Shown here: positions 1,955 through 11,593 of the stretch, piece by piece
How the letters are laid out: every line of letters starts with the position of its first letter
Position numbering within the stretch: the stretch's first letter is position 1
Assembly (NCBI GenBank): GCA_018677115.1
Contig: JAHHOC010000387.1
Coordinates: forward strand, 1 to 11,593
Source of the DNA: Arenicella sp.
GTDB lineage: Bacteria; Pseudomonadota; Gammaproteobacteria; Arenicellales; Arenicellaceae
Direction: 5' to 3'
Length of the DNA stretch: 11,593 bases
Program-made: the position numbers and the translations under genes
Notes under the pieces: model-generated
What the model was told of the DNA's origin: nothing
The model's database searches: none
What the model saw: only the letters and a program-made list of their open reading frames with translations

Positions 1955-2473
1955 ATGCAGTTGATAGAGCCCCAATTTCATAGCCGCAGAGCGCAGGAAG
2001 GATTTACCCTGCTGGAGATTATGGTTGTGTTGGCTATTGTTGGCACCGTGATCGCAGTTGTTGGCATCAACCTCACTCCCGACACAGACCGCCTGGCGCG
2101 GCTGGAGGCGGGACGTTTTATTACAGTCGTTAATGAAGTCAGGGATGAGGCCATTCTTGCTGGAGAGAGCTACTTTTTATTGATCGATGATAGGAATATG
2201 AGCTATCAATTTATTGGCATCAGGGCGGATCGCAGTAAATCCCGCGATGAAGGGCTGTTGAGGGTTCGCAGCGTAGAGCAGGGTGTTTCCCTGGATTGGG
2301 AGGTGTTCGAGCAGTTTGATAGTGAAGAATCCGAAAAACGGGTGTTGATTACTGCGCTGGGGGAAATAACTCCTTTCGAAGCATGGTTCGAGGGTGATGA
2401 AAATCAGTATCGTGTTTACGTTAACGAAGATTACCAGCTCGAGCAACGCACCGATGAGTCGTCCCGCTTGTGA
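1955..2473 (+). CDS. gspH: GspH, type II secretion minor pseudopilin
   Basis: GspH is a minor pseudopilin of the T2SS pseudopilus. It is inserted in the inner membrane, processed by prepilin peptidase GspO, and assembled with GspI, J and K near the pseudopilus tip. The protein is 172 residues. The type IV prepilin signal is EG^FTLLEIMVVLAIVG, with cleavage after Gly16 and the conserved Glu at +5 (Glu21), followed by a hydrophobic helix to about residue 40 and a soluble beta domain with acidic segments. No other in-frame ATG supports a different start. No Shine-Dalgarno sequence precedes the ATG, and a -10-like TATTAT sits at 1942-1947 without a good -35. gspG, normally directly upstream, is absent. 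It heads the gspHIJKLM block and ends one base before gspI. Confidence 0.92.
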   Translation: MQLIEPQFHSRRAQEGFTLLEIMVVLAIVGTVIAVVGINLTPDTDRLARLEAGRFITVVNEVRDEAILAGESYFLLIDDRNMSYQFIGIRADRSKSRDEGLLRVRSVEQGVSLDWEVFEQFDSEESEKRVLITALGEITPFEAWFEGDENQYRVYVNEDYQLEQRTDESSRL

Positions 2474-2474
2474 T

Positions 2475-2864
2475 ATGCGACTTGATGCTGAAAACGGTTT
2501 TACCCTTATTGAAATCATCGTCGCGTTGGCGGTAGTGGCAATTGCAGTACTGTCAATGATGGGTAGCATGAGCACGCATGCCCATGTGAGTGGTGAATTG
2601 GAAAAAAACGTCATCTCGCGTTGGGTTGCCAGCAACGTAATCGCGGAAACCCGTTACCAGGCGCAGTTTGAGAGAATCAGGATTGGCAGGTCAAGCGACA
2701 CTATAAGGATGGGTGGACACCGCTGGCGTGCGCGGAGTACTGTTGCCAAAACTGACGTGGAACAAGTATTTCTGCTGACCGTAGAGGTTTTTGATGAAGA
2801 TACGAAGGATGATAAGCCGCTCAGCCGGCTGACCACCGCGCTTGCCTATTCTGGTGAATTATGA
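2475..2864 (+). CDS. gspI: GspI, type II secretion minor pseudopilin
   Basis: GspI is the minor pseudopilin thought to nucleate the I-J-K tip complex of the T2SS pseudopilus. From ATG 2475 it has 129 residues, close to the family norm, with a short leader MRLDAENG^FTLIEIIVALAV, cleavage after Gly8 and Glu at +5. The start lies one base past the gspH stop. An in-frame ATG at 2454 would give a 15-residue leader and a 20-base overlap; neither start has a strong Shine-Dalgarno sequence, so 2475 is preferred on spacing. The soluble part contains an MGGHRWRA motif common in GspI proteins. Its stop overlaps the gspJ start (ATGA), which implies translational coupling and stoichiometric synthesis. Confidence 0.92.
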   Translation: MRLDAENGFTLIEIIVALAVVAIAVLSMMGSMSTHAHVSGELEKNVISRWVASNVIAETRYQAQFERIRIGRSSDTIRMGGHRWRARSTVAKTDVEQVFLLTVEVFDEDTKDDKPLSRLTTALAYSGEL

Positions 2865-3553
2865 TGAAGCGCGGATCCGGATTTACACTCATCGAAATAG
2901 TGGTTGCCGTTGCTATTTTCGGAGTGATTATGAGCATTGTGTTCCCGACCCTGGCGCAGTTTCTGGATCTTCGCGAACGGCTTCAGCAAAAGCATCAAGA
3001 GATTGCCGGTCTTCAAAAAGCCTTTCTGTTCATGGCCAATGATTTTCGCTACGCTGCGAATCGGTCGCCCAAAGACGAATACGGTGAACCGGTTAAAACC
3101 ACCTTGAGTATCGATGACGGGGCACTGATTAACCTGACGGCGCTGTACCCGGATGTGAATCTGGATGGGCTTAATGTGCCGCGCCGCCTGCAGTGGGTGC
3201 TTGAAGATGGTGCACTTAAACGCATTCAGTACCCGGTAATGGACCCCGACGCGACAACACGCGCCGTCACACAAATACTATTGCGCGACGTGCAAAGTGT
3301 TGCTGTGGAAGTGAGTCACATCGAGGACGGGCGCAGTAATACAGACGATAAATGGAGCGAGGGCTCCAGCCTCCCAGGATTGATAGCCATCGACGTCGAG
3401 TTTTTGGATGGTACCGAATTCCGCCGGGTGTTCACCATGGTAGGTGGCGATAAACAAAAGGCTGTCGCAGCGGAAGCAGCAACTTCTGTCGAACCATCGA
3501 TTAACCCCGAATCGGATGAGTCCACGAGCGATCAGGACACCGGAGACAGTTGA
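2861..3553 (+). CDS. gspJ: GspJ, type II secretion minor pseudopilin
   Basis: GspJ forms the pseudopilus tip with GspI and GspK. The protein is 230 residues with a very short leader, MMKRGSG^FTLIEIVVAVAI, cleaved after Gly7, with Glu at +5. The soluble domain has typical GspJ elements: the DFRYAANR segment (about 61-68) and VPRRLQWVLEDGALKR (about 107-121), the latter resembling the family's strand preceding a basic turn. The C-terminal 30 or so residues (from about 201) are a Ser/Glu/Asp-rich, probably disordered tail. ATG 2861 overlaps the gspI stop; ATG 2864 is an equally possible start. The stop overlaps the gspK ATG by one base (TGATG), and GGAG at 3542-3545, inside this gene, serves as the gspK ribosome-binding site. 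Confidence 0.92.
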   Translation: MMKRGSGFTLIEIVVAVAIFGVIMSIVFPTLAQFLDLRERLQQKHQEIAGLQKAFLFMANDFRYAANRSPKDEYGEPVKTTLSIDDGALINLTALYPDVNLDGLNVPRRLQWVLEDGALKRIQYPVMDPDATTRAVTQILLRDVQSVAVEVSHIEDGRSNTDDKWSEGSSLPGLIAIDVEFLDGTEFRRVFTMVGGDKQKAVAAEAATSVEPSINPESDESTSDQDTGDS

Positions 3554-4677
3554 TGAAATCGGGCTCAACAATAAACCCTCCGGCGCAGAGCGGCCTGGCA
3601 CTGGTCACCGTGCTGTTGATCGTTGCCCTTATTGCCTCTTTGCAAGTGTTCCTGATAGAACAGCAGCATTTGCTGATACGCATGATAGGCAACCAAAAAG
3701 CAGCTGAGCAGAGCTTTCAATATGCGCAGGGAATTAATACGTGGGCGACGCGGGTGCTGTATGAAGACGCAAATCCTGCCATCGACTATTGGGGTGAGGA
3801 CTGGTACAAGTTCGGTAAACCAGTCGAGCAGCAGCAAAATCAGAATGTTGACCAGTCGGACTTTTCCCTGCAGACAACCCGCCAGGCAGCTGAGGAAGAA
3901 GAACCCATGCCACAGGTAGACTTTGGCATTGAGGGACTGAAATTTGAAATACAGGATCTGCAGTCACGCTTCAACCTCAACAATCTTGAGGATAAAAATC
4001 CGGCTGCGATGAAAGCATATAAAACGATTTTTCTAAACCTTCTGGAAATCCTGCAGATTGGCGAGATAGCTGATCGTGAACAGTTGTACGGCGCACTGCT
4101 GGATTGGCTTGACGAAAATGACTTGGCAAGCGCCAGTGGTTATGAGAGTGGCGATTATCAAATAAAAACCACGCCCTATTATTCTGCCGATCAAAAACTA
4201 ACTTCACTGGGCGAGCTTCGTTTTGTCGAGGGGTTTACAGCGGAAGTGATTTCAAAGCTCAGGCCCTATGTGACTGCTTTGCCAATTAATAATGCTAAAA
4301 TCAATCTGAACACCGCCAGCGCTGAGGTCGTGGCGGCCCTTAGTGCTGTTCCGGTCACTGATCTGGGGAGCATCTCAGCATTTCTCAGTGAACGCGAAGA
4401 AGAGGCCTTTTTAGGATTCCAAAGCGCAGATATCCAGCGCGCCGAAAGTGCTATTATTGGCGCATCCGTTATCGGTAAAACGCCGGTTCCAAATATGTTG
4501 CAGACCTTCAGTCAGTTTTTCAGCGTTAACGCCCACATTAGCCTCGGTGATCACAGTTACTGTACCAGAACTGTTGTTATGCGGGAGGCTGCAAATCCAG
4601 ATGATTCTGCAGTGCCAGGAATCACCATTATTGGGCGGGAACATGACACGTTCTGCGTCGATTCCCAGACTTTATAG
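3553..4677 (+). CDS. gspK: GspK, type II secretion minor pseudopilin
   Basis: GspK is the large pseudopilin that caps the tip of the T2SS pseudopilus. From ATG 3553 it has 374 residues. The prepilin signal is SG^LALVTVLLIVALIA, cleaved after Gly14; as is characteristic of GspK, the +5 Glu is absent (Thr). Family landmarks are DLQSRFNLNNL (135-145), LLDWLDEND (182-190) and INLNTASAEVVAAL (250-263). Residues about 90-122 form a Gln/Glu-rich low-complexity insert just before the core. Two cysteines near the C-terminus (337 and 368) could form a disulfide in the periplasm. The start is supported by GGAG seven bases upstream and by the TGATG overlap with gspJ; a TTG at 3550 in frame is less likely. 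Confidence 0.93.
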   Translation: MKSGSTINPPAQSGLALVTVLLIVALIASLQVFLIEQQHLLIRMIGNQKAAEQSFQYAQGINTWATRVLYEDANPAIDYWGEDWYKFGKPVEQQQNQNVDQSDFSLQTTRQAAEEEEPMPQVDFGIEGLKFEIQDLQSRFNLNNLEDKNPAAMKAYKTIFLNLLEILQIGEIADREQLYGALLDWLDENDLASASGYESGDYQIKTTPYYSADQKLTSLGELRFVEGFTAEVISKLRPYVTALPINNAKINLNTASAEVVAALSAVPVTDLGSISAFLSEREEEAFLGFQSADIQRAESAIIGASVIGKTPVPNMLQTFSQFFSVNAHISLGDHSYCTRTVVMREAANPDDSAVPGITIIGREHDTFCVDSQTL

Positions 4678-4682
4678 CGCCT

Positions 4683-5852
4683 ATGCAACTCTATATTCGA
4701 TTAGAAGCCCCGTTTGAATGGGTGCGTGTCAACGGACGTAAAGTTGAATCCTTCGGTGAAGTGGCCTCGCCGGCTGATTACCCTGTGTCAGCTGACTATG
4801 AAGTAATCGGTGTAGTACCAGGTACCCTGGTTACTGCGCATCGGGTTAGTCTTCCGGCAAAATCCCGCAAACAGTTTCAAACCGCGTTGCCATACGCGCT
4901 GGAAGAAACCGTTTCAGAAGAAATTGATGATCTGCATTTCGTAGTGCCGCAGTGGCAACCCGGTCAGGCGTGTACAGTACTCGTTGTGGCCAAACAACAT
5001 ATGCAAAGATGGCAGGCGCTTGCTGACGATAATCGCCTGCCGGTTAACACGCTGGTTCCAGATTACGCGTTGCTGCCGATCCATGATGCAGCAGATTGCA
5101 CATTGTGCCGTCAAGATGAGCGTGTGTTGACTAACCATGAGGGAGGTTTTGGGGTCAGTCTGGATACGGAATTCATTGAATCATGGTTAATGGATGTACC
5201 CGTGTCATCGGTGATCGCAGTGAACGACCAGCAATTGACTGAGCAGCTCATTGAAAAACACCCGGATCGCGATTTTCGGCATTGGCCAATCGGTGAAAAG
5301 ATGGCACATTGGCTGGAGTACCCCAGGGTGATGGAGCTTGATCTATGGTCAGATGCCTACCGTCCTTCGGTCAATAGTCTGGATTGGCGGTCGTTCTCGC
5401 TGCCGCTGATCATTTTCGGGATTGCCGTTGCTGCGCTATTCTTATTCGATACCTATCGGTATTTCTCGCTACATGCCGAAGTGCGATCAATAGATGCAGA
5501 GATGCAGGACATCATCAAGCGTACATTTCCTGAGATCGACACTGTTGAGGTCAATAACGAACGCTATATCATGCAGCAGGCACTTGAGCGACGCCGTGGG
5601 CCGGTCATCTCAGGTGGAATGCACACATTATTGGCAGAAACATCGGCCGTACTGCGGCGCGAAAAAATCACCCTGTCAAATATCGTTTACCGCGACTCGG
5701 AATTGGTCATCACCTGTCAGCTGAATGACTTTTCGCAGGTTGACAAGATTACCCGGCAATTAAATTCCAGACCGGCAATCAGTGCCACTTTGCAGTCTTC
5801 AGCGTCGGATGATGGTGAAATCGTCGCCAGCTACGCATTAACCGAAAGTTGA
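4683..5852 (+). CDS. gspL: GspL, type II secretion inner-membrane assembly platform protein
   Basis: GspL links the cytoplasmic secretion ATPase GspE to the inner-membrane platform and the pseudopilus. The 389-residue protein has the family's order: an N-terminal cytoplasmic actin-like domain (about 1-230), one transmembrane helix (about 238-256, LPLIIFGIAVAALFLF), then a periplasmic ferredoxin-like domain (about 300-389). The PYALEETVSEEIDDLHFV segment (70-87) is a recognisable GspL signature. ATG 4683 is five bases after the gspK stop, without a good Shine-Dalgarno sequence, suggesting translation by coupling. It is followed after 18 bases by gspM, its structural partner. Length and order are normal; nothing suggests decay. 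Confidence 0.93.
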   Translation: MQLYIRLEAPFEWVRVNGRKVESFGEVASPADYPVSADYEVIGVVPGTLVTAHRVSLPAKSRKQFQTALPYALEETVSEEIDDLHFVVPQWQPGQACTVLVVAKQHMQRWQALADDNRLPVNTLVPDYALLPIHDAADCTLCRQDERVLTNHEGGFGVSLDTEFIESWLMDVPVSSVIAVNDQQLTEQLIEKHPDRDFRHWPIGEKMAHWLEYPRVMELDLWSDAYRPSVNSLDWRSFSLPLIIFGIAVAALFLFDTYRYFSLHAEVRSIDAEMQDIIKRTFPEIDTVEVNNERYIMQQALERRRGPVISGGMHTLLAETSAVLRREKITLSNIVYRDSELVITCQLNDFSQVDKITRQLNSRPAISATLQSSASDDGEIVASYALTES

Positions 5853-5870
5853 TAGAGAATACACAGAGCC

Positions 5871-6374
5871 GTGCAAAATATTATTAAATCAAAATGGGCG
5901 AAATTGGAGCAGCGCGAGAGACTTGTGCTGGGCTGGGGCGCTTTTATTGTCGCAGCGATAATTTTCTATGCATTTATCTGGCAGCCCTGGCATCGTGCGA
6001 TTGAGCACATGGAGCAAGCTTTGCAGCCGCGGCGTGAAAGCCTTGTGTGGATGCGTCAGCAGGCGGAAATAATAGAAAAAGGGCCGGCCAGGAATAGTGC
6101 GGCAAACTTTAAAGGCATGTCTGAGTCTTTATTGTCGGTGATTGAAAAAACTGCCAGGGTCAGCAAAGTGCGTGAATCCATTCAGCAAATGGTACCCAGT
6201 TCGAACGGTGATGAAGTGCGCGTGGTTCTTGAGGAGGCAAATTTTAATAACTGGGTACGCTGGATTGACGTGCTCATCAAGGATTATGGCGTCACCGTGA
6301 AACAGCTTTCTGCCGAGCGTGATGAAGATTCGCCCAATGTCGCTGAAATAAGAATTACCTTCGAGCGAGTTTAG
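5871..6374 (+). CDS. gspM: GspM, type II secretion inner-membrane platform protein
   Basis: GspM is a bitopic inner-membrane protein that binds GspL and stabilises the T2SS platform. It has 167 residues, with a short cytoplasmic N-terminus (WAKLEQRERLVL), one transmembrane helix (about 20-37), the typical W-x-P exit (WQPW, 37-40), a periplasmic helix (about 42-70) and a C-terminal ferredoxin-like domain containing NFNNWVRWIDVL, a GspM hallmark. The start is GTG at 5871; no in-frame ATG precedes the hydrophobic helix, and AGAG lies just upstream. It ends the gsp block: a strong terminator follows at 6397-6424, so gspN is not in this transcript. Confidence 0.92.
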   Translation: MQNIIKSKWAKLEQRERLVLGWGAFIVAAIIFYAFIWQPWHRAIEHMEQALQPRRESLVWMRQQAEIIEKGPARNSAANFKGMSESLLSVIEKTARVSKVRESIQQMVPSSNGDEVRVVLEEANFNNWVRWIDVLIKDYGVTVKQLSAERDEDSPNVAEIRITFERV

Positions 6375-6488: not shown

Positions 6489-6977
6489 TTAGAGCTGTTC
6501 GACCATATAGTCAACAGCAGCCTTTACTGAGTCATCTGAGAGCGCTGTATTGCCACCCTTGGCAGGCATCATGCCGGCTTCACCTGTATAACCATTTATG
6601 GCATTCGCATAGAGCGCTTCGATGCCCTTTGTCACACGTGACTCCCAGTCTCCCGCATCTCCTAACATCGGAGCGCCAGCCACGCCCGACGTGTGACAGG
6701 CCCCACAACTGGCATAGGCTTGCTCACCAGTCAGTGCCTCCGCAACTACTACTGGTGCAGCCGCAGCGGTTTCCGCTGCGAATGCTCCAACTGGTGCAAT
6801 GCGCTCGGCAATTGAGTTGCTGTTTTCCAATTCACTGCGCGCGTCCAGACGCTCGTTCACATCGCTTGCTGCGAATGTGGCAACAAACATTAGCAAAACG
6901 GCAATTACCGACATTGCAATGATCATAATGATAAATAGACGATTGAACGTTGAATCGTTCATTTGTTCTTCACTCAT
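6489..6977 (-). CDS. Membrane-anchored cytochrome c5-family protein
   Basis: This 162-residue monoheme c-type cytochrome probably carries electrons at the periplasmic face of the inner membrane. Residues about 14-36 form a hydrophobic helix, most likely an uncleaved signal anchor. A long Ala/Glu-rich linker (about 37-80) follows, then the heme domain. The heme motif is CGACH (Cys91, Cys94, His95) within ALTGEQAYASCGACHTSG. The likely axial Met is in GMMPAKGG (Met137 before Pro138), in the position used by cytochrome c5 proteins. The C-terminal VKAAVDYMVEQL helix also fits. The start MSEEQ is preceded by CAGG at good spacing; a second Met follows at residue 6. A TATAAT promoter lies about 45 bases upstream. 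The electron partners cannot be told from this window. Confidence 0.9.
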   Translation of the reverse strand: MSEEQMNDSTFNRLFIIMIIAMSVIAVLLMFVATFAASDVNERLDARSELENSNSIAERIAPVGAFAAETAAAAPVVVAEALTGEQAYASCGACHTSGVAGAPMLGDAGDWESRVTKGIEALYANAINGYTGEAGMMPAKGGNTALSDDSVKAAVDYMVEQL

Positions 6978-7090: not shown

Positions 7091-8590
7091 TCAGCCCTTA
7101 AAAAGCGAGCCAAGAACACCCCGAATAACACGTCTGCCGAGCGAAGAGCCGATAGACCTGGCTGCGCTGCTGATAAACGCCTCGGTCGGTGTTTGCCTGG
7201 TCGAGCGTCGTTTTTTGGTTTTGCTCTGGGCTTTGGCTTTCTGTTCCGCCAATTCGCGCTCAGCTTCCTGTTTCTGCAAACGCGCCTCTTCTGCTGCCGA
7301 CTTCTGGGCACGTGCCACCAGCATTTCATGGGCAGAGTCACGATCGAGTGTTTTGTCGTAACGGCCTCTGTAAGGGGATCGTTGCACCTGTTCTTTTCTT
7401 TCTGCTGCGCTCATCGGCCCGATCCTTGATTCCGGGGGGCGAATCAAAATCCGCTCGACCTGGGTTGGAATTCCCTTGGCGTTTAGCGTTGATACCAATG
7501 CTTCACCCACCCCCAGTTCGGTAATCACACCTTTGGTATCCAGTTTGGGATTGCTGCGAAAGGTATCAGCCACAATTCGCACTGCCTTTTGATCCTTGGG
7601 TGTGAATGCACGCAGCGCATGTTGAATCTTCAGGCCTAGTTGACCCAATATTTCTTCAGGCACATCCAGCGGGCTCTGCGAGATAAAGTAGATACCGACA
7701 CCCTTGGAACGAATCAGCCGGACTACCTGTTCAATTTTATCCACCAGGACCCTTGGCGCATCGTCAAATAACAGGTGTGCCTCGTCAAAAAACATAACAA
7801 ATTTTGGTTTCTCCGCATCGCCGACTTCAGGCAGGCTCTCAAATAGCTCAGCCAGCAACCAGAGTAGAAAAGTCGCATACAGCTTGGGGGAAGTCTGGAT
7901 GAGTTTGCTGGCGTCGAGAATGTTGATAACACCGCGACCTGAGAAATCAAGGCTCATCAGATCATCGAGCTCAATCGCCGGTTCGCCCAGTAAATACTCT
8001 GCGCCTTGCTCTTCAAGCACCAGTAATCCGCGTTGGATGGCGCCGATTGATGCGGTTGATATATTGCCGTATTCAGATCTCAGCTGTGCGCGATTATCAC
8101 CCATCCATATCAACATGGAACGCAGGTCCTTTAAATCCAGAATCAATAATCCCTGATCATCGGCAATCTTAAAGCAGGAATAGAGAATTCCGGTCTGGGT
8201 CTCGTTCAGTTCAAGCAGGTTCGACAGCAATAAAGGGCCGATTTCGCTGACAGTGGTACGAATTGGATGCCCTTTTTTGCCGAACAGGTCCCAGAACACA
8301 ACCGGACTCGGCTGCATTTCGTAGTTCTCGATGCCGATGGTGGCGATACGCTCATCTATTTTCGGGTGTGGTTTGGCGGGCTTGCCGACACCCGATACAT
8401 CACCTTTCACGTCTGCCAGGAACACAGGTACCCCAATCTGCGAGAAATTCTCCGCCAGAATTTGCAGGGTTACTGTTTTACCGGTACCTGTAGCGCCCGA
8501 AACCATGCCATGGCGGTTTGCCATGCGCGCGTCCATCGTTACCGTTTGTGTGCCATTGCCGCCGATAAGCAGGCTGATTTTTTCAGTCAT
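7091..8590 (-). CDS. yjgR: YjgR-like DUF853 P-loop ATPase (HerA/FtsK-type fold)
   Basis: This 499-residue ATPase belongs to the DUF853/YjgR group, related to HerA-type helicases/translocases. Its biological role is not established. The Walker A motif is GATGTGKT (32-39), followed by [10 protein letters not shown] (58-67). Walker B is [12 protein letters not shown] (264-275), with Asp269 and Glu270. The segment [19 protein letters not shown] (301-319) and [12 protein letters not shown] (324-335) are typical sensor regions of this family. The C-terminal part (about 425-465) is a Lys/Glu/Ala-rich helix with a basic stretch KTKKRRSTR, then a helix rich in Ile, Arg and Gly. The length matches the E. 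coli homologue. It is transcribed alone, with a terminator after it; the start ATG has no clear Shine-Dalgarno sequence. Confidence 0.93.
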
Positions 8591-9095: not shown

Positions 9096-9152
9096 TTTAT
9101 ATGATGCGGCGGGGCAGATTTGTTAGCAGGTAATTTTTCGAACAAAACTAAC

Positions 9153-9842
9153 ATGCGTATTGCGATACTCGAGGACGACAAGGATCAGGCTGATTTGCTG
9201 AAACTGTGGCTGGAAGAGAAAGATCACCAGTGCTCGGTTTTCAGTGATGGCAATGCTTTTATTCGAGCATATTCGCGTGACAGTTATGATGTCGTGTTGC
9301 TGGATTGGATGGTGCCGCATCTCAGCGGCATAGATGTGCTCAAACATCTTCGAAATCATCTCGACCCACAGGTGCCGGTTGTTTTTATAACGCAGCGAGA
9401 CACGGAGGAAGATATTGTCGAAGCACTGAGTGCTGGCGCTGACGATTTCATTGCTAAACCAATCCGGCAAATGGAAACCATGGCTCGTATCGACGCGATT
9501 GCGCGGAGGGTTGGCTATGGCGATGAAAATACAGCTGAGAATTATGATTTTGCACCGTATTCGATTGATACCAAGACGCGCCAGGTTCGCTACCAAGGAG
9601 AACTGATTGACATGACGCAAAAGGAATATGAACTTACTTTGTTCCTGTTTAAGAATCTGGGACGGGTCATCTCGCGCGGGCACCTGCTTGAAATGGTTTG
9701 GGGAACGAGCTCTCAGATCAATACGCGCACGGTGGACACTCATATAAGCCGCTTGAGGACTAAACTGCAGCTTGATCAACAGGATGACTGGAAGTTAACT
9801 TCGGTATACCGGCACGGATACCGCTTGGAAAATGTCAGCTAA
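9153..9842 (+). CDS. OmpR/PhoB-family response regulator
   Basis: This is a two-component transcription regulator of 229 residues. The receiver domain (about 1-118) has the acidic pair Asp8/Asp9, the phospho-acceptor Asp51 in VVLLDWMVP, Thr80 in VVFITQ and Lys102 in FIAKP, so it should be phosphorylatable. The winged-helix domain (about 130-228) contains MTQKEYELTLFLFKNLGRVI, LLEMVWG, TRTVDTHISRLRTKL and VYRHGYRLE, the usual OmpR/PhoB signature. I start at ATG 9153 (MRIAILEDD), which fits the receiver fold exactly; a TTG at 9120 would add 11 unlikely residues. No clear Shine-Dalgarno sequence precedes it. No histidine kinase is in view. It lies 57 bases before the coiled-coil gene with no terminator between, so it may be co-transcribed with it. 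Confidence 0.93.
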   Translation: MRIAILEDDKDQADLLKLWLEEKDHQCSVFSDGNAFIRAYSRDSYDVVLLDWMVPHLSGIDVLKHLRNHLDPQVPVVFITQRDTEEDIVEALSAGADDFIAKPIRQMETMARIDAIARRVGYGDENTAENYDFAPYSIDTKTRQVRYQGELIDMTQKEYELTLFLFKNLGRVISRGHLLEMVWGTSSQINTRTVDTHISRLRTKLQLDQQDDWKLTSVYRHGYRLENVS

Positions 9843-9899: not shown

Positions 9900-10445
9900 A
9901 TGAGCCAAAAAGGCAAACGTCCGTCAGCCGAAATAATCAACCCGGGGCTGGCTGAGATTGATAAAGTCCGAGATATCCTGTTCGGTAAATATGTCGCTGA
10001 CTTTGAACACCGGTTTGCGGAGCTGGAGAAGCGCATGGAAGCCGATGTAGATACCCTCAAGGAACGTTTGGTCAAAAAGATCGAGAGCATGGATGACACA
10101 GTGGGCAATTCAATTGCCAAGCTGGATGAGCGCCTGGCACTTGAAAAGAAAGACCGTGATAGTGAATTAAAAGCGTTGCAGAAAATGCTGGACGATGCGC
10201 AGGCGTCATTGCAACATTCGATAAATACAATGGAGGATCAGGCCAATCAGGATTTGGGAGTGGTGCGGAAAACGCTGGAGAGTAGCCAGCAGGATATGCT
10301 GGATCAGATGAATAAGGCGCAAAAGGAACTGACTGCCATGATTGAGAAGCAAAAAGATCAACTAGAATCCGACAAAGTTGGTCGGCAGTCACTGGCTCTG
10401 TTGTTGGATGAAGTTGCCCTTCGTCTGCGCGGAGATGACGAGTAA
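9900..10445 (+). CDS. Coiled-coil protein with N-terminal KVRDILFG motif
   Basis: This 181-residue soluble protein lacks a signal peptide or membrane helix and is dominated by charged helix. Residues about 32-160 have heptad-like spacing rich in Glu, Lys, Asp, Gln and Leu, so a long coiled coil is expected. Two ends stand out: EIDKVRDILFGKYVADFEHR (19-38), and a C-terminal block, GRQSLALLLDEVALRLRGDD (161-180). I recognise this end-to-end pattern from uncharacterised proteins, including cyanobacterial ones, encoded beside OmpA-like membrane proteins; the function is unknown. GGGAG (9888-9892) supports the ATG at 9900. It lies 69 bases before the OmpA-like gene, whose N-terminus carries a related motif, suggesting a shared complex, probably cytoplasmic at the inner membrane. 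Confidence 0.8.
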   Translation: MSQKGKRPSAEIINPGLAEIDKVRDILFGKYVADFEHRFAELEKRMEADVDTLKERLVKKIESMDDTVGNSIAKLDERLALEKKDRDSELKALQKMLDDAQASLQHSINTMEDQANQDLGVVRKTLESSQQDMLDQMNKAQKELTAMIEKQKDQLESDKVGRQSLALLLDEVALRLRGDDE

Positions 10446-10514: not shown

Positions 10515-11593
10515 ATGAGCCAGATAGAAGAGCTGCGGCAGATTCTGGTTGGTGATAATGCCGAGGAGCTTGCCAAACTGCGCAACAGGATTGATAGCCT
10601 GGATCAGCGTACCAAAGATGTGGCAGAAGTGCTCGCGCCCGCTATCGATGCCGGAATCAAGAAAAACGACAAGTTGGTTAATTCGCTGGCGGGCCCGGTA
10701 TCGAGCAGTTTGAAGACTGCTATTCGCGCTGAACCCGACAATTACGCAGAAATCCTATACCCGGTTATGGCGCCGGCAATCCGCCGGGCTATTTCCCAGG
10801 CGATCAGTTCGCTGATGGTGACGATTAACCAGACTATGGCCTCGGCGACATCCGCAGAGGGAATCAGTCTGCGTATGCAGTCGTGGCGAACCGGCGTGCC
10901 TTATGCGCAACTGGCGTTGCGCAAGTCATTGCAATACCGCGTTGAGCATGTCTATTTGATCGACCGCGAGTCAGGGATGATGGTGACCGAGTGTGGGGTG
11001 GAGGAAAGTGGCACACTGGATAGTGATGCTGTCAGCGCCATGTTTGCGGCGATTCAGAGTTTTGTGCAGGATTCGTTTTCAGGACGTGAGGATGATCGGT
11101 TGACCGACCTTAAGGTGGGTGAATACAACGTGTGGATCGCCCACGGGCGCAAATTGATGTTAGCCTGTGTCATAGACGGCGATCCCCCGGAAAGTTTTAA
11201 AACTGTTATGTACGATACGCTCGATGGAATCCGTAGTGACTATGCCAATGAGATTGAGGATTTTGACGGTGATAACAGTGCCTTCGGAGGTGTTGAGGAG
11301 AGGTTGCAGCCGTTGTTGCAATCACAGCTCAAAGAAGAACAAGATGAAGCGGACAGTGACCAGGCAGTTGATTTAAAAACGCTGCTATTTGCGATGCTGG
11401 CTTTGGCGCTGGTGGCCTATCTGGTCTATGGATGGGTAACCGCAGCTACCCAGAGGCAAACAGTAGAACATTACCTCAAGCAGACTCCGGGAATGGCGAT
11501 TACCGAAACCTATTGGCAAGATGACCGGATCGTGGTGCAAGGCCTGCAGGATCCTGATGCTGAAATTCCCTTCGCTACTCTCAAAGCTCACAG
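10515..11593 (+). CDS. OmpA-family-like membrane protein with roadblock/longin-like domain, 3' truncated
   Basis: The frame is open from ATG 10515 to the edge (359 codons); the gene continues outside. The N-terminus (1-40) is a charged helix with ELRQILVGDNAEELAKLRNR. Residues about 42-140 form a helical region containing YPVMAPAIRRAISQAISSLM (82-101). Residues about 143-250 read as strand-strand-helix-strand-strand-helix: VEHVYLIDRESGMMVTE, a helix over DAVSAMFAAIQSFVQDSF, KVGEYNVWIAHG, KLMLACVIDG, then a long helix to DFDGD. This order is roadblock/longin-like. An acidic linker (about 270-286) precedes one transmembrane helix (about 288-306), then TPGMAITETYWQDDRIVVQG. I recall this layout from proteins that end in a peptidoglycan-binding OmpA domain, but that domain is not visible here. 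No convincing Shine-Dalgarno sequence precedes the ATG. Confidence 0.8.
   Translation, partial: MSQIEELRQILVGDNAEELAKLRNRIDSLDQRTKDVAEVLAPAIDAGIKKNDKLVNSLAGPVSSSLKTAIRAEPDNYAEILYPVMAPAIRRAISQAISSLMVTINQTMASATSAEGISLRMQSWRTGVPYAQLALRKSLQYRVEHVYLIDRESGMMVTECGVEESGTLDSDAVSAMFAAIQSFVQDSFSGREDDRLTDLKVGEYNVWIAHGRKLMLACVIDGDPPESFKTVMYDTLDGIRSDYANEIEDFDGDNSAFGGVEERLQPLLQSQLKEEQDEADSDQAVDLKTLLFAMLALALVAYLVYGWVTAATQRQTVEHYLKQTPGMAITETYWQDDRIVVQGLQDPDAEIPFATLKAH

Follow-up and report, generated by a model that had tools for sequence, protein, structure and literature searches.

A predicted longin-fold domain in a probable Group 1 Rup membrane protein from Arenicella

The closest described relatives of the system considered here are the Group 1 Rup neighbourhoods, which were recognised in 2014 by Wuichet and Sogaard-Andersen from gene neighbourhoods and consist of a coiled-coil gene, a gene encoding a domain listed as unknown together with a transmembrane (TM) segment and OmpA, a Rup GTPase without the glutamine of the G3 motif, and an output module in which an N-terminal glutamine is invariant (PMC4316618). 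MglA-MglB and the actinobacterial conservon CvnA-D likewise combine a small Ras-like GTPase with a partner of the roadblock/longin class and a link to two-component signalling (PMC4316618). The present analysis concerns a protein encoded at the end of an 11,593-nucleotide stretch from Arenicella sp. (the window), which is the entire contig C349 of a genome split over 510 contigs, and in which an open reading frame (ORF) on the forward strand (10515..11591, ATG start) shows 359 codons and is open at the contig end. All four Group 1 components recur in the loci related to it and the window neighbourhood is a Group 1 Rup system, the outline of which was already known (PMC4316618). It differs from the published outline in that the domain is predicted to have a longin fold, that OmpA is missing from the window's genus (0/12 complete copies), and that an Hpt gene and a gene for an OmpR-type regulator flank the system in this genus. 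MglB and CvnB are furthermore of Robl_LC7 type and have no membrane anchor, as PMC4316618 and general knowledge of these proteins have it, whereas the window protein is membrane-anchored and longin-like and has no Robl_LC7 match. What is new is the longin-fold assignment of the Rup-system domain and a testable model in which a membrane-held longin platform would set the nucleotide state of a Rup GTPase, which in turn gates an enzyme of a phosphorelay or of second-messenger signalling.

An AlphaFold2 model of the window protein, based on an alignment of 81 rows, has a mean predicted local distance difference test score (pLDDT) of 84.3 and a predicted template modelling score of 0.50, and within residues 141-270 the pLDDT of ten-residue blocks averages about 88, with lower values of 75-77 in 161-190. 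The first-pass annotation, made from the letters of the window, had placed a roadblock/longin-like domain of β-β-α-β-β-α order at 10940-11274, and the place was well chosen while the extent was a little too short, since the predicted domain comprises residues 139-271 (10929..11327). The strands and helices are indeed there in the model, whereas their count was too low: strands at 139-150, 156-161, 198-201, 204-210 and 214-222 and helices at 170-187 and 227-242 are followed by further C-terminal helices at 244-248, 254-257 and 260-268, and the order β-β-α-β-β-β-α-α with an extra C-terminal helix is predicted both for the window protein and for its relative L079. The Leu-Ile-Asp-Arg-Glu-x-Gly turn pointed out in that annotation is found as L148-I149-D150-R151-E152-S153-G154 at the end of the first strand. 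By structural comparison with Foldseek and VIA-align the domain resembles solved longins across most of the longin domain, and the 50 VIA-align rows of the window model are filled by longin-class structures with identities of 7-17%, the top matches including adaptor-complex subunits and SNARE longins beside guanine nucleotide exchange factors (GEFs). MglB is matched by Foldseek at E 1.2e-3 to 3.1e-3 and is absent from the 50 VIA-align rows of either model, an absence which excludes nothing. Roadblock as the nearer fold was nonetheless set aside, given the longin-class VIA-align rows and an hhalign comparison against 35 Robl_LC7 sequences that returned a probability of 3.4%, where the positive control gave 99.9%. 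The fold thus looks to be longin rather than roadblock in the models, so that of the proposed class the longin half is favoured and the roadblock half is not. The best-conserved parts of the domain are the helix 170-187 and the strand 141-149, which from their conservation would be the foremost candidate surfaces for dimerisation or for contact with the GTPase; L148, M176, A179, I180, F183 and G222 are invariant in 81/81 aligned sequences, as is R120 (81/81) directly N-terminal of the domain, and the block LYPVMAPAIRRAI (residues 81-93) in the N-terminal helical region (residues 1-128 in model and alignment; 10515..10898) is among the best-conserved blocks of the family.

The computed gene order and co-occurrence tie this protein to a GTPase. 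An alignment-based scan of genome contigs found that 471 of 561 candidate stretches encode a relative (an earlier scan with a single sequence had given 15 stretches matching the pattern, of which 0 encoded one), and the counts per locus refer to the best 80 of these 471 (L040-L119), of which L040-L052 (13/80) overlap the same-genus genomes of the comparison below, the two sets not being independent. A Ras-type GTPase, counted when its ORF lay no more than 1.5 kb downstream in the same orientation, follows in 65/80 loci (53/67 outside the genus), and all 65 match PF00071. Among 61 related genomes, the window's own included, PF00071 matches of at least 75 bits, a line chosen after inspection of the list, number 18 and come from 17 genomes, in open frames of 156-195 amino acids; all 17 belong to the 18 genomes encoding the protein, the 18th being the window's own, as compared with 0/43 among those without it. 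In the window's own genome the GTPase search led to three places, a frame of 807 amino acids, one of 434 amino acids and a fragment opening contig C481; the fragment is followed, by Pfam, by a hybrid histidine kinase (285-1838), an Hpt protein (1846-2169) and a Zn-peptidase (2219-3076). Since this gene order is that of relatives such as L024, C481 likely continues from C349. The expectation of a Ras-like GTPase next door holds for most relatives, while the genome itself offers a fragment on a separate contig. On the other side, a coiled-coil-type ORF with a KIRDILFG-type motif lies upstream in 65/80 loci (52/67 outside the genus; 0 with shuffled ORFs), and 8 of the 15 loci without it have no upstream ORF of 90 amino acids. 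The output genes were collected as 59 rows, namely the C481 kinase and, for 58/65 loci, the longest ORF that follows the GTPase; the rows include some short ORFs and one GTPase, so that not all are true output genes. The kinase ATPase domain HATPase_c occurs in 31 of the 59 rows, guanylate cyclase and HD domains in 5 each and a sigma-54 activator domain in 3. In L021, one of the Rhizobium and Mesorhizobium loci, an adenylate/guanylate cyclase gene follows the GTPase gene. The position after WDxxG that would hold the G3 glutamine is glutamine in 0/65 GTPases, being E in 27, R in 13, T in 8, N in 4, K in 4, S in 3, D in 3, A in 2 and G in 1, and 54/59 output rows have glutamine in the Q115 column; both features are marks of Group 1 Rup systems (PMC4316618).

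The expected single membrane helix is borne out, as hydropathy gives one TM segment after the domain (residues 290-308, 11382..11438; helix 287-323 in the model), and exactly one is likewise found in 74/80 family ORFs, with two in 4 and none in 2. The longin domain is most likely cytosolic and held at the inner membrane by this helix, since its GTPase partner resides in the cytosol and OmpA domains in the periplasm. An OmpA domain had been expected further on, and this link is true for most relatives (PF00691 at E ≤ 0.001, C-terminal, in 55/69 full-length family ORFs, a scan that left out 11 genus copies, L042-L052) and fails for the window's genus, where the complete copies, checked singly, have no Pfam domain in 12/12 and OmpA in 0/12 (L040-L050 and L052; L051 is cut by its contig). 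The genus copies furthermore stop short of the OmpA region of the other relatives in the alignment, and because 0/12 complete genus homologues have OmpA, the window protein probably has no OmpA domain for binding the wall. Complete genus homologues have 484-538 amino acids, and what the window shows beyond the TM segment (11439..11591) is the start of a predicted BON-like part, putatively periplasmic, the remainder of which lies past the contig end. The Rhizobium and Mesorhizobium versions (L020 and L021, 7842-10907, 1021 amino acids) contain several repeats of a unit ahead of their OmpA region at the C-terminus.

Taken together, we consider it probable that this protein serves a Group 1 Rup system as its membrane subunit, and that its longin-fold domain docks Rup, regulates the nucleotide state of Rup and thereby gates the output encoded in the same operon; the role of the domain is then most likely GEF-like or that of a platform. 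In such a mechanism the membrane-held longin domain, perhaps as a dimer, would bind the Rup GTPase and set its nucleotide state, while the part beyond the membrane, with BON-like units here and OmpA in most relatives, would sense or anchor to the envelope and supply the input. GTP-loaded Rup would act on the output enzyme at its N-terminal region, which may itself supply the missing glutamine and thereby end the signal; in the window's genus the output would be the hybrid histidine kinase, with a chain from kinase and receiver to Hpt and perhaps to the OmpR-type regulator at 9153-9842, and the coiled-coil protein may connect the components with one another. The coupling of a cytoplasmic switch to the envelope, already suggested in the first-pass annotation, and its direction from envelope to output are what we infer from this arrangement.

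The absence of the G3 glutamine in 65/65 GTPases and its counterpart in the output rows may however be read in another way, in which the domain is an MglB-like GTPase-activating protein (GAP) rather than an exchange factor, and the catalytic glutamine comes in trans from the domain or from the output protein. A trans glutamine from an unknown GAP has been speculated on (PMC4316618), the roadblock protein MglB is the GAP of MglA (PMC4316618, PMC3521125), and the invariant R120 lies just ahead of the domain; on the other hand roadblock/longin dimers are mainly GEFs (PMC10933270) and the fold looks nearer to longin than to MglB, so that a GAP role is conceivable but the less expected one. The adaptor-complex subunits and SNARE longins among the best structural matches, as well as the coiled-coil-type gene upstream in most loci, would also suit a scaffold, or an anchor that localises the GTPase to the inner membrane and leaves its nucleotide state unchanged, which we nevertheless regard as unlikely, considering that a helix and a strand are nearly invariant across phyla and so hint at, without proving, a switch-reading interface. 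That the domain is a PAS/GAF/profilin-like sensor, its longin likeness reflecting the wider fold class and the adjacent GTPase a shared pathway in place of contact, is improbable, even though longins fall within a PAS-like fold class (PMC3521125) and the longin families find no sequence match in the protein family.

Several observations weigh against a longin domain that regulates Rup and have to be set beside that model. A shared fold shows no function, and longins are also SNARE regulators and coat subunits. Pfam longin and roadblock models find no match among the 81 family members (eight unrelated Pfam families appear at E ≤ 0.01, with one member each and a best E of 0.0011), and a sequence-profile search of the PDB returned three chance-level rows at E 0.21-0.65; the assignment rests on predicted structure because of this lack of sequence matches beyond chance, and by sequence the domain is outside every named Pfam longin family. 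Of the 15 loci without a neighbouring GTPase 5 have less than 600 bases of contig remaining, and one with a short contig end (L104) has the GTPase on the other side, but 10/80 loci have at least 1.5 kb left and no adjacent GTPase, nine being Thiotrichales-type bins, one of which (L086) has a GTPase 3.5 kb downstream, and one from Latescibacterota. Weaker stand-alone GTPase frames of about 20-33 bits and 177-205 amino acids are present in G002, G007, G008, G011, G014 and G017, and a weaker stand-alone frame is also found in G016, which is without the protein. The fragment on C481 is a C-terminal half, with G4 (NKRD) and G5 (SAK) and the G1-G3 part missing, and its continuation from C349, likely as it is, is unproven. 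Finally, the positive-inside rule was dropped as a guide to topology, the mean net charges of +1.12 before and +0.87 after the TM segment being uninformative.

The eukaryotic longins of TRAPP, Mon1-Ccz1, Fuzzy-Inturned, Sec22b, Ykt6 and Vamp7 are alike in predicted fold and element order and in having a Ras-family partner gene, whereas the window protein is bacterial, has an identity of 7-17%, is fused to TM and BON/OmpA parts and is known from sequence and prediction. TRAPP and Mon1-Ccz1 are the cores of Rab GEFs, while Sec22b, Ykt6 and Vamp7 are SNAREs. An Asgard archaeal longin has been solved (PDB 8yqg, PMC10933270), and in the Asgard strain MK-D1 the small GTPase genes generally share no operon with longin genes (PMC10933270), whereas here the two genes adjoin in most loci. 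Neighbourhoods with FtsZ-like, OmpA and GTPase genes (PMC2875224) were taken to be a different system, since the accessible text mentions no Ras-like or small GTPase, longin or Rab. In the literature searched, which left out most subscription papers, the domain of the Rup/OmpA protein is not called a longin in the titles, abstract openings and passages covered, and set phrases for bacterial or prokaryotic longins do not occur, the accessible parts of PMC8527833 and PMC7703760 likewise holding nothing on bacterial longins. A table in PMC4917890 does however list 'Longin/Roadblock' jointly as present in bacteria, which speaks against a claim of first sight, and because of this table and of the subscription papers outside the search bacterial longins may have been mentioned before.

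We would tentatively go further and suggest, as a reading that falls somewhat short of being the expected one, that many bacterial phyla have true longin domains in operons with Rab-like Rup GTPases, within proteins that cross the inner membrane and in many cases extend to the wall, and that this is an old prokaryotic partnership. If true, the control of Rab-like GTPases by longins did not begin in archaea or eukaryotes, and bacteria would have a transmembrane switch between the state of the envelope and a phosphorelay or second-messenger output, an unusual route in which a transmembrane, often wall-linked protein gates two-component or second-messenger signalling by way of a GTPase. Bacteria may in this manner link the cell envelope to signalling by a switch control akin to that of eukaryotic longins and Rabs. 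A longin-fold partner is a candidate regulator of the Rup GTPases, and a bacterial counterpart of the longin-Rab partnership of eukaryotic trafficking becomes directly testable.

The protein is found in 18/61 related genomes, namely its own, 15 others of the genus, one of the family and one of the order, and in 33/299 genomes, its own included, of an even sample of the phylum. The record names of other relatives, mostly metagenome bins, point to Gamma-, Alpha- and Deltaproteobacteria, Variovorax, Acidobacteria, Nitrospirales, Acaryochloris, Planctomycetota, Latescibacterota and one Bacteroidetes bin, and relatives also occur on four plasmid records of Rhizobium, Mesorhizobium and Nostoc. The Thiotrichales-type bins (Thiomargarita, Parabeggiatoa, Thioploca and others) have versions of 861-1267 amino acids in which the N-terminal part is enlarged, and the 1.5 kb downstream of them hold no GTPase (L075, L080, L081, L084, L085, L086, L088, L091 and L112). 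Two genomes of the window's genus, G006 and G016, have neither the protein nor a PF00071 match of at least 75 bits, and since G016 is 99% complete, members of the genus can seemingly do without the system. In G004 an in-frame stop splits the gene (L037, 9510-10769) and the kinase region falls into several short ORFs, so that the operon looks decayed in this species. A second stand-alone Rup-like GTPase gene in G015 (L125, 990-1481) has no partner of the present type in the 6 kb read. Robl_LC7 occurs elsewhere in 6/61 related genomes at E ≤ 0.001, with 4 above the curated cut-off, and these loci (L126-L131, in G002, G016, G011, G005, G007 and G017) have a weak PF00071 match on their contig, no further than about 2.5 kb away, in 5/6 genomes, G005 being the exception; they are apparently separate MglA/MglB-like pairs.

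As for the remainder of the window, type II secretion genes, by Pfam an N-methyl pseudopilin and proteins J, K, L and M, occupy 1955-6374, followed on the minus strand by genes for a cytochrome c (6489-6977) and a HerA-like ATPase (7091-8590). The OmpR/PhoB-type response regulator (9153..9842 on the plus strand, PF00072 and PF00486) has 229 amino acids from the second Met, the ORF being listed from a TTG at 9120, and by Pfam takes the same position in L024 and in five further relatives checked. The protein with the longin-fold domain itself finds no Pfam model at E ≤ 1, and in NCBIfam two chance-level matches at E 0.019 and 0.12, far below the cut-offs. Between it and the regulator lies the gene for the coiled-coil-type protein (9900..10445, plus strand, 181 amino acids), assigned from its sequence and sub-threshold Pfam matches. 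The N-terminal motif of the latter, IDKVRDILFG (9900-10030), is similar to IEELRQILVG of the longin-fold protein (10515-10620), and hhalign aligns the two N-terminal families with 77% probability over 25 columns, a comparison made with no negative control; the common motif is possibly a shared docking module.
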